Part shown: positions 19,983-23,384 of the stretch, one piece after another
How the letters are laid out: each line of letters opens with the position of its first letter
Position numbering within the stretch: the stretch's first letter is position 1
Origin: Elusimicrobiaceae bacterium
GTDB lineage: Bacteria; Elusimicrobiota; Elusimicrobia; Elusimicrobiales; Elusimicrobiaceae
Reading direction: 5' to 3'
NCBI GenBank assembly: GCA_017417005.1
Contig: JAFQAA010000057.1
Span: 1-37,086 of the forward strand
Length of the DNA stretch: 37,086 bases
Program-made: the position numbers and the translations under genes
Notes under the pieces: generated by a model
Seen by the model: only the letters and a program-made list of their open reading frames with translations
Told to the model about the DNA's origin: nothing
Databases searched by the model: none

Positions 19983-20018
19983 AAAAAAACTCCCCAAGTT
20001 TTTGTTCTTGGGGAGTTT
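19983..20018 (-). terminator. Terminator of the tuf end of the operon
   Basis: AAACTCCCCAAG (19987-19998) with CTTGGGGAGTTT (20007-20018), a 12-bp stem with an 8-base loop. On the minus strand it is followed by a run of seven T. It lies 18 nt after the tuf stop codon. Confidence 0.92.
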
Positions 20019-20036
20019 CTGTTAGCAAGAAATTTG

Positions 20037-21224
20037 CTACTCAATAATCTTTGTAACAACACCTGCGCCTACTGTTCTGCCACCTTCGCGGATAGCAAAG
20101 CGCACACCTTCTTCCATGGCTACAGGAGTTATTAAGGTTACTTCAATTTCGGCATTATCACCTGGCATAATCATGTCGCCTTTGAATTGTAATTCGCCGG
20201 TTACATCGGTGGTTCTGAAATAGAATTGCGGTTTATATCCAGGGGTTAAAGGTGTATGTCTGCCACCTTCATCTTTCTTCAAGATATAAACTTGACCTGT
20301 AAATTTCTTATGAGGAGTAATTGTTTTAGGAGCTGCTAAAACTTGTCCTCTTTCTACTTGGTTCTTGTCAATACCTCTAAGTAAGATACCAACATTATCG
20401 CCTGCAATACCTTCGTCAAGAAGTTTGCGGAACATTTCAATACCGGTGGCTACTGAGGTTAAGGTATCTCTAAAACCGATAATTTCAATAGGATCACCTA
20501 CTTTAATCTTACCTCTTTCAATTCTACCGGTGGCAACTGTACCGCGACCGGTGATTGAGAAGACGTCTTCTACTGCCATTAAGAAAGGTTTATCTGTTTC
20601 TCTTTTCGGCTCAGGTATCCATGTATCTAAGGCTTCTAAGAGTTTCTTAATTGAAGGAACACCAAGTTCACTAGTATCGCCTTCAATTGCTTTTAAGGCG
20701 CTACCGCGGATAATCGGGGTTTCTCTGTCAAAACCATATTTTTCAAGTAAATCGCGGACTTCTTCTTCAACTAAGTCAAGCATATCTTTATCATCTACTA
20801 AATCTACTTTGTTTAAGAATACAACTAACTTCGGAACATTAACTTGTTTTGCGAGCAAAACGTGTTCTTTTGTTTGAGGCATTGCACCATCAACGGCGGA
20901 AACAACCAAGATTGCCCCGTCCATCTGGGCAGCACCGGTAATCATGTTCTTAATATAGTCTGCGTGGCCCGGGCAGTCAATGTGGGCATAGTGTCTTTTA
21001 TCACTTTCATATTCAACGTGGGATACTGCAACGGTTACGATTTTGCTTGCGTCTCTAACAACACCGCCTTTTGCGATATCGCTATAGGCCATTTCTTTTG
21101 ATTTACCTTCGCTTGCCAATACTTTGGTTAAAGCGGCGGTAAGGGTTGTCTTGCCGTGGTCAACGTGGCCGATTGTGCCAACATTAACGTGCGGTTTGCT
21201 TCTTGAAAACTTCTCTTTTGCCAT
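20037..21224 (-). CDS. tuf: Elongation factor Tu with divergent switch I
   Basis: A 395-residue EF-Tu, the GTPase that delivers aminoacyl-tRNA to the ribosome. P-loop GHVDHGKT (19-26), G3 DCPGHADY, G4 NKVD and the domain 2/3 segments ([23 protein letters not shown]) are standard. Switch I is not: between MAYSDI and VEY it reads [19 protein letters not shown] (51-69), where nearly all bacteria have a form of APEEKARGITI. The region is also two residues longer. Thr64 aligns with the Mg-binding Thr of RGITI, but the preceding Gly and the acidic pair are gone. It is the last gene of the fused beta/str operon, 60 nt after fusA with a hairpin between. Identity is certain; the consequence is not. 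Confidence 0.98.
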
Positions 21225-21284: not shown

Positions 21285-23384
21285 TTATTTTGCTGCGGCG
21301 GCAGTTTTCTTTTCAATTACTGCTTTTGCAACGTTTGCGGGCACTTCTTCATAGTGGCTAGGTTCCATTGTAAAGGAAGCGCGGCCCTGAGAAAGAGAGC
21401 GAACGGTTGTCGCATAACCAAACATTTCGGCAAGGGGAACTTGCGCTTTAATATATTTGGCGTTTCCTCTTTCGCCCATTTCGCCAATTTTGGCGCGGCG
21501 GGAACTTAAATCGCCCATAATATCGCCCATATTGGCTTCCGGCGTAACGACTTCTACCTTCATAACAGGTTCCAAAAGAACGGGTGCTGCTTTCTTTGCA
21601 CCTTCTTTAAGACCCATAGAGGCGGCAATTTTAAATGCCATTTCTGAAGAGTCAACTTCGTGGAAAGAGCCGTCGTATACAGCCACTTTGATATCTACCA
21701 ACGGATAACCGGCTAAAGCACCGCTATCAAGGGCTTCTCTACAACCCTTTTCAACGGCAGGGATATATTCTCTAGGAATACGACCTTGGGTAATTTCGTT
21801 GACAAATTCAAAACCTTTGCCCGGAGCTTGAGGCTCTAAGCGCAAGAAGACGTGACCATATTGACCTTTACCGCCGGATTGACGAATAAATTTGCTTTCT
21901 TGTTCAACGGTTTTGGTAATGGTTTCGCGATAGGCAACTTGCGGTGCGCCGACATTAGCTTGAACATTAAATTCCCTTTTCATTCTATCTACGATGATAT
22001 CCAAGTGAAGTTCACCCATACCGGAAATAATGGTTTGGTTGGTTTCTTCATCGGTTTTTACTCTGAAGGTTTGGTCTTCTTCGGCAAGTCTTGCTAAAGC
22101 ATTAGACATTTTTTCAGAGTCATCTTTAGATTTAGGTTCAACGGCAATAGAAATAACCGGTTCAGGGAAAGAAATGCTTTCAAGCACGATAGGATGATCG
22201 GGCGAGCAGATGGTTTGACCGACGGAAGCATTTTTAAGTGCAACGGTTGCGGCAATATCACCGGCTCTGAGAGATTTAACTTCTTCTCTCTTATTTGCGT
22301 GCAAGCGCATAATACGACCAACGCGTTCTTGTGCATTTTTAGACGGGAAATAAATAGTATCGCCCGCGTCAAGTTTACCTGAATAAATGCGGAAGAATGA
22401 GAGCTTACCTACATAAGGATCTGTCTGTATTTTGAAGAGTAAAGCACAGAAAGGTTCTTTATCGCTATGCTTTCTGATTTCTTCGGCACCGGTATCAGGA
22501 TTAATACCTTTGACGGGAGGAATATCCAAAGGTGAAGGCAAATAGTAGCAAACAGCATCAAGCAAGGGTTGCACACCTTTGTTTTTGTAAGAAGAACCGC
22601 AAACAACAGGGAAGAACTTACCAGTTAAGGTTCCTTTTCTGATTGCTTTGTGGATTTCTTCTTCGGTAAAATTGGTTTCGCCACCCAAGTATCTTTCCAT
22701 AATAGCATCGTCAAAATCGGCGAGTTTTTCTATCATATGGGTTCTGACTTCTTGGGCTTCGGCTTTTAATTCTTCGGGGATTTCAACTTCGTTGAAGGTG
22801 GCTCCGTTGTGGTCGCCATCCCAGATGATTGCTTTCATCTTGATAACATCAACGACACCTTTAAAGTTGTCTTCTTCCCCAACAGGAATTTGGATAGGGC
22901 AGGCATTACCGCCGAGTTTATCAACGATAGATTTTGCTGCACGGCGGAAGTTTGCGCCGATTCTATCCATTTTGTTAATATAGGCAATTCTAGGGACATT
23001 ATATTTATCCGCCTGACGCCAAACGGTTTCAGATTGAGGTTCAACGCCTTGCACGCCGTCAAAGCAACAAACTGCGCCGTCTAATACGCGCAAAGAGCGT
23101 TCCACTTCTGCGGTAAAGTCCACGTGTCCTGGAGTGTCAATAATGTTAAATTGGCAATCACGCCATTTGCAATAAACAGCAGCAGAAGTAATAGTGATAC
23201 CTCTTTCTCTTTCCTGTTCCATCCAGTCAGTAACAGAAGCACCATCGTGGGTTTCCCCAATTTTGTGGGTTCTACCTGTATAATAAAGTATGCGTTCTGT
23301 TGTGGTGGTCTTACCAGCGTCAATGTGAGCGATAATACCGATATTTCTAATTTTGTCTAAAGGAAAAACTTGGTTATCAGCCAT
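21285..23384 (-). CDS. fusA: Elongation factor G
   Basis: A 699-residue EF-G, the GTPase that drives translocation and, with RRF, ribosome recycling. P-loop AHIDAGKTT (19-27), canonical switch [14 protein letters not shown]3 DTPGHVDF and NKMDR are present. Domains II-V follow, with [13 protein letters not shown] in domain IV and a Lys/Ala-rich C-terminus. The canonical switch I contrasts with the neighbouring EF-Tu. It lies 11 nt after rpsG and 60 nt before tuf, in the usual str-operon order. Length is normal for the family (about 690-705). Confidence 0.98.

Follow-up and report, generated by a model that had tools for sequence, protein, structure and literature searches.

Few bacterial proteins are as conserved or as abundant as elongation factor Tu (EF-Tu), which delivers tRNAs to the ribosome and whose switch I region is the GTP sensor of the molecule. 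To our knowledge, EF-Tu switch I has usually been described in one form. In canonical bacterial EF-Tu (TIGR00485), as in the E. coli and Thermus proteins, the loop follows the pattern D-x-A-P-E-E-x-x-R-G-x-T, termed here R-type, and in E. coli it reads DNAPEEKARGIT, with 12 letters to the Thr (reference sequence L231, mature numbering with Ser as residue 1). Other translational GTPases that lack the Gly of switch I include EFGII, Ria1, Snu114, eEF2, aIF5B and eIF2gamma (PMC4342817), although these belong to other subfamilies and EF-Tu is not named with them in section 12 of that article. The same article mentions actEF-Tu and Streptomyces EF-Tu3, extra copies of EF-Tu that are distinct in sequence from the usual one.

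The tuf gene described here lies in a window of 37,086 nucleotides from an Elusimicrobiaceae bacterium, contig C17 of a bin (G000; 1.19 Mb in 109 contigs, 90.2% complete). The encoded EF-Tu shares with the canonical protein the three domains, the G motifs, the Mg-binding Thr, the gate residues, His84 and the K89/N90 pair, but its loop has 12 residues (15 in relatives) bearing R-D-x-x-K in place of D50-G59. This second form, termed K-type, is defined by R-D-x-x-K-[I/T/V]-x-T, displays no Gly two residues before the Thr and is 2 or 5 residues longer than the R-type. In contrast with these Gly-less GTPases, K-type EF-Tu is an EF-Tu and keeps the P-loop Asp ligand, and unlike the extra copies actEF-Tu and EF-Tu3 it is here the gene of the str operon, with no canonical copy found in the bin. 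No description of the K-type loop was found in an open-access library or in passages of the papers judged closest (PMC13351119, PMC3444138, PMC4342817, PMC7203096, PMC2647929 and PMC5770160), and Jenkins and Fuerst (2001), on planctomycete EF-Tu, may have noted the form. Among the alignments listed for three K-type queries against the PDB, the two distinct chains were both canonical. The K-type sequences themselves are already in public genome records.

The window tuf gene and its switch I loop

The tuf gene (20037..21224, minus strand) encodes 395 residues in a single open frame. Its product scores 652.2 bits with the TIGR00485 profile (curated cut-off 522.4) and lies above the cut-offs of PF00009, PF03144 and PF03143, which represent the GTP-binding domain and domains 2 and 3. 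The P-loop (GHVDHGK), the DxxGH motif (DCPGH), the NKxD motif (NKVD), the Mg-binding Thr64 and the catalytic His87 are all present. The gene order, rplJ-rplL-rpoB-rpoC-rpsL-rpsG-fusA-tuf, is the usual one and places tuf in the str operon, the gene names being those we assign by recognising the translations. The adjacent fusA (21285..23384, minus strand) encodes an EF-G with the canonical switch I RERGITI. Directly after tuf there is a terminator-like hairpin of 14 pairs followed by a T run (19985..20020, minus strand); the consensus scan found 3 such sites against 1.5 expected in shuffled sequences, and the hairpin after tuf is by far the longest. An intact EF-Ts gene adjoins rpsB; its product has 274 residues and contains the TDFV motif. 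The window protein shares 96% identity with the EF-Tu of a buffalo-rumen bacterium of the Elusimicrobiaceae (L131).

The initial annotation had singled out positions 21018-21086, which code for residues 47-69, and had reported at residues 51-69 an altered effector loop that is followed by the normal VEY and later by DCPGH, in an intact frame of the main translation operon and next to an EF-G with canonical switch I; the window translation confirms all of this. The switch I of the window protein does not follow the R-type pattern. The loop is, as had been stated, two residues longer, with 12 rather than 10 residues between Ile50 and the gate residue. The alternative module comprises residues 51-62 (21039..21074, minus strand), which replace E. 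coli D50-G59 (DNAPEEKARG), and is delimited by the columns that separate the types in five phyla and by a peak of cross-phylum identity. In the alignment of full-length rows, Val63 (21036..21038, minus strand) is the equivalent of the hydrophobic-gate Ile60, and Thr64 (21033..21035, minus strand) is that of the Mg-binding Thr61, a position occupied by Thr in every one of the 234 K-type rows and the 113 R-type rows. The earlier view that only Thr64 aligns does not hold, since Val63 and also Val65 (for Ile62) are conservative replacements and SHVEY is intact.

Only one other place in the bin lies above the EF-Tu cut-off, at 7212-8396 of contig C89 (locus L036, 7212-8399). This copy is 95% identical to the window gene and has the same loop, but contains one in-frame TAA and displays ATT where the start ATG is expected. 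Genes for tRNA-Cys, -Gly and -Thr precede it, a position like that of tufB. Compared with the window tuf it has 171 differences in 1188 bases, but only 43 compared with a gene of another species of the genus (G096); being far nearer to the latter, it may lie on a relative's contig that was misplaced into the bin, or be a tufB in decay. The suggestion that a second tuf might exist elsewhere was correct to the extent that another copy is present, but this copy is damaged and offers no canonical fallback because it carries the same K-type loop, and a profile search of the contigs of this 90.2% complete bin found no canonical tuf. A specialised extra paralogue beside a canonical housekeeping tuf is also improbable, since the sole other place above the cut-off in the bin has the same loop, although at that completeness a further copy may be missing.

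Distribution of the two loop types

Within Elusimicrobiota, 198 genomes were searched and 98 matched at 1e-60, giving 106 loop-covering loci and 88 genomes in which the loop was readable; 10 of the 98 had only tuf pieces outside the loop. The K-type was found in 80 of the 88 readable genomes and the R-type in 8, six of them from family f7, of the window's own class, one from f18 and one from f19. Wherever two copies were readable (18 genomes), both are K-type, the damaged C89 copy counted, and the D-[CA]-PGH motif is present in 106 of 106 loci. The stretch in the window recurs identically in 5 other readable genomes of the genus, so that the loop in the window tuf is neither an error nor a product of chance; 5 further genomes of the genus gave no EF-Tu match at 1e-60 and are untyped. 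A reading of the loop as an oddity of its lineage is not supported: most readable genomes of the phylum sample carry it, and it is frequent in several further phyla. The initial annotation had also named, as evidence against its reading, the same segment occurring throughout a large clade with unchanged function, and the first part of this, a loop common across a large clade, is what was found. In one second tuf at a contig end (L108, G070:C25), Ser occupies the place of the Mg-binding Thr (KILSIALSHVEY), which represents an error or decay; the other copy of that genome has Thr.

Outside the phylum, a DNA pattern for the K-type loop matched at least 115 stretches on genome contigs, and 115 of the 115 listed carry EF-Tu motifs. 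As this pattern looks for K-type letters, it says nothing on frequency, and its hosts are mostly metagenome bins, some of which may be misassigned. In the 80 listed records the hosts include Planctomycetota, of which one is the isolate-named Rhodopirellula baltica strain BR-MGV (L173), as well as Verrucomicrobia, Nitrospira, Aminicenantes, Omnitrophota, Taylorbacteria, WOR-3, Thermoflexus and Elusimicrobia. Phylum samples were scanned with a two-type pattern, which also fits mixed K-G or R-I loops and demands DCPGH; the types were read off the letters by eye, genomes without a match are left untyped, and each outside sample bears the phylum label of its centre genome. On this basis the K-type is present in 46 of 91 matched Planctomycetota genomes (99 searched), plus one derivative, in 50 of 94 Verrucomicrobiota (96 searched), in 15 of 64 Acidobacteriota (99 searched), in 9 of 53 Nitrospirota (100 searched) and in 2 of 57 Chloroflexota (101 searched). 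The K-type loop is a major natural form of EF-Tu switch I and no curiosity.

Three loci of the wider collection deserve separate mention. A Chlorobiaceae bin (G207), whose full tuf is R-type, has a short piece of a K-type tuf at the end of one contig (L150), probably a misplaced contig. A very divergent extra EF-Tu (L259, G215:C206; 56% identity) displays a K-type-like loop (VAKGGIKRDESKTVTVVTSHVEF) in a genome that also has a normal K-type tuf. In L211, the stretch after HVEY is unrelated to normal EF-Tu sequence (RTYSGPDALPFKHLL...), reflecting an insertion, a frameshift or a misassembly.

Loop history and gene history

K-type loops have 14 or 17 letters to the Thr, against 12 in the R-type, and the 17-letter form reads AKASESQGRRDDSKIVT in Elusimicrobiota and AKADAKMFRRDATKILT outside. 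No intermediates between the types were identified among the rows examined, except for one derivative. The collection comprised 412 loci, of which 24 were without a usable EF-Tu frame and 388 had one; 347 full-length rows (234 K-type, 113 R-type) were compared, corresponding to 304 distinct proteins (192 K-type, 112 R-type) because some genes were retrieved twice. The columns that separate the types in all five phyla are E. coli positions 50, 53, 55 and 59 and the inserted columns, all within the loop. Beyond the loop, no column tracks the type in all five phyla, the best column outside the segment having a mean difference of 0.65, in a test that scores one residue at a time and includes only 6 R-type rows of Elusimicrobiota. 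A compensating network inside EF-Tu was rejected on the same single-residue scoring.

Over residues 51-63, rows are 0.75-0.89 identical to type-mates in another phylum, as against 0.00-0.25 between K- and R-type within one phylum; the 17- and 14-letter K forms of Elusimicrobiota are 0.43 identical here. Elsewhere along EF-Tu the identities to type-mates and to members of the same phylum are mostly similar, or the same phylum is favoured. A milder excess for type-mates extends over residues 31-50 and 64-68, and since residues 31-46 also resemble type-mates more (0.55 vs 0.34-0.37 in three comparisons), the exchanged tract may be longer or coupled. At residues 339-368, K-type rows with the 17-letter loop and R-type rows of Elusimicrobiota are closer to Verrucomicrobiota (0.68) than to the 14-letter K rows of their own phylum (0.55).

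Trees were calculated from cluster representatives, comprising 146 rows, 145 rows (quick trees, from which L259, the longest end branch, was left out, although it was kept in the 146-row tree) and 60 rows picked evenly within groups (careful maximum likelihood, with the loop columns masked). In the 60-row tree, all 16 Elusimicrobiota rows (12 K-type, 4 R-type) form one clade (100/99), in which the R-type rows occupy two separate starred places. Resolution at depth is poor, with 19 of 57 inner branches open in the 60-row tree and 54 of 143 in the 146-row tree. Loop type changes 6 times on the 60-row tree, 12 times on the 145-row tree and 15 times on the 146-row tree (shuffled mean 48.7). The loop and the remainder of the tuf gene have thus had different histories.

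Taken from these comparisons, the window gene most likely encodes a functional housekeeping EF-Tu whose switch I has one of two natural, alternative forms and whose loop has been modular in its history. K- and R-type would be interchangeable versions of the same effector loop. A short loop module may have passed from one tuf gene to another by recombination, alongside some transfer of whole genes, and recombinational exchange of this kind would be the simplest account of the distribution of the loop. By an alternative route, two ancestral tuf copies could have been sorted while gene conversion acted on all of the gene except the loop, leaving a similar pattern.

That whole K-type tuf genes spread between phyla by horizontal transfer, carrying the loop along with no module exchange, is unlikely as a general explanation. 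K-type as a single clade is rejected on the 60-row tree (lnL 125 lower, AU p 6.3e-9) and on the 145-row quick tree (AU p 0.026), K- and R-type Elusimicrobiota group together as described above, and Nitrospirota K rows lie beside a Nitrospirota R row, if weakly (92/60). For some Acidobacteriota such transfer is nevertheless likely. In one class, two K rows cluster with K rows of Verrucomicrobiota (96/89), and over large parts of the gene the K rows of Acidobacteriota are at least as close to those of Verrucomicrobiota as to rows of their own phylum; thus, with whole-gene transfer also occurring, not every switch of type is a module swap. Three of the 15 K-type Acidobacteriota genomes (G223, G252 and G278) have an R-type gene as well. 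In the class of G223, 12 of 13 genomes matched, all 12 with the K-type and the same 3 with the R-type too. In G223 and G252 the K-type gene follows fusA in the str operon (L414-L417), while the canonical gene keeps the tufB place, from tRNA-Tyr/Gly/Thr to tRNA-Trp, as it also does in G278 (L381), an arrangement that likewise favours transfer of the K-type gene.

Independent origin of the same loop under selection by a partner (ribosome, EF-Ts, tRNA or ion conditions) would suit the scattered distribution and the repeated changes of state on all three trees, yet it is quite improbable: whole loops, whether of 14 or of 17 letters, recur unchanged in different phyla, AKASESQGRRDPTKILT being shared by Acidobacteriota, Nitrospirota and Verrucomicrobiota and AKADAKMFRRDATKILT by Acidobacteriota, Caldifarciminota and Chloroflexota, and re-invention of APEE--RG in families f7, f18 and f19 is equally unlikely. 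A defence role is very improbable. EF-Tu is cleaved at the Gly59-Ile60 bond by Lit, a phage-exclusion protease (PMC3014915), and K-type EF-Tu, lacking Gly at the cleavage position, would evade it; however, the Lit family PF10463 occurs in 1 of 99 Planctomycetota genomes, itself K-type (G497), and is too rare there to explain the half-and-half split of that phylum. That the window tuf is a pseudogene, an assembly error or a specialised paralogue can be practically dismissed in spite of the damaged or foreign look of the C89 copy, since, in agreement with the initial annotation, which had already discounted a pseudogene or sequencing slip, the window frame is intact and in the str operon, the stretch is repeated in the genus and the loop type is shared by 80 of the 88 readable genomes of the phylum sample.

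Function and the monovalent-cation site

Asp21, Lys24, Thr61, Asp80, Gly83, His84, Lys89 and Asn90, as well as Asn135, Lys136, Asp138 and Thr382, are identical in K- and R-type EF-Tu apart from one gap in the 347 rows. Rows were admitted only with the P-loop Asp and the D-[CA]-PGH motif, so the constancy of these two among compared rows is partly by construction. In a freer check without this entry filter, the P-loop Asp (Asp22 in the window protein, 21159..21161, minus strand; Asp21 in E. coli) was present in 400 of 401 segments. Within the loop, R57, D58, K61 and T64 are invariant in the 234 K-type rows. Because the catalytic and tRNA-5'-end residues compared agree and no column outside the loop is linked to type, K-type EF-Tu very probably runs a normal GTPase cycle. 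The K-type loop would perform the same GTP-sensing cycle, its invariant Arg-Asp-x-x-Lys taking over from E55, R58 and G59 of E. coli. The initial annotation had suggested that EF-Ts exchange, delivery of tRNA or sensitivity to EF-Tu antibiotics may be altered.

An AlphaFold2 model of the window EF-Tu has a mean pLDDT of 86.8, with block means of 55 and 63 in the loop, where short strands are predicted at residues 56-58 and 61-62 with too much uncertainty to indicate a preferred nucleotide state. VIA-align superposes the predicted fold on 1EFT, a GTP form, with Z 55 and an rmsd of 1.8 Å, and ranks GTP-form EF-Tu entries on top, which implies nothing special about the loop. As confidence in the loop is too weak, no mechanism rests on the model.

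In other translational GTPases a monovalent cation is bound by the main-chain carbonyl of the switch I Gly and by the P-loop Asp, as described in PMC4342817 and PMC4509514, the latter also citing work that gives the cation little part in catalysis. Judging from its position relative to the Thr, this Gly would correspond to Gly59 of EF-Tu, where K-type proteins have Ile, Thr or rarely Val. The lost Gly would be the clearest testable consequence of the K-type loop; its loss may equally change nothing, since a carbonyl ligand does not strictly need Gly. The derivative from the Planctomycetota sample (L413, G471), which is the single exception among the 401 P-loops, has changed both the loop Lys to Arg (TRVVT) and the P-loop Asp to Ala (GHVAHGK), a double change at cation-site positions as expected if the two residues touch. 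A tentative and rather doubtful extension, drawn from these residue patterns, is that the loop has travelled from phylum to phylum as a cassette, apart from its gene, and that its R-D-x-x-K acts as a built-in cation and lessens the need for K+ in binding and hydrolysing GTP. The Lys three residues before the Mg-binding Thr would then possibly face the P-loop Asp and replace the monovalent cation held by Gly.

A second form of switch I in about half of the typed Planctomycetota and Verrucomicrobiota, and in most typed Elusimicrobiota, shows how much of switch I is required. Generic models of EF-Tu may rest on only one of its switch I forms. K-type loops offer natural variants with which GTPase activation and the monovalent-cation site can be dissected, and the Acidobacteriota with one tuf gene of each type are ready-made test organisms.
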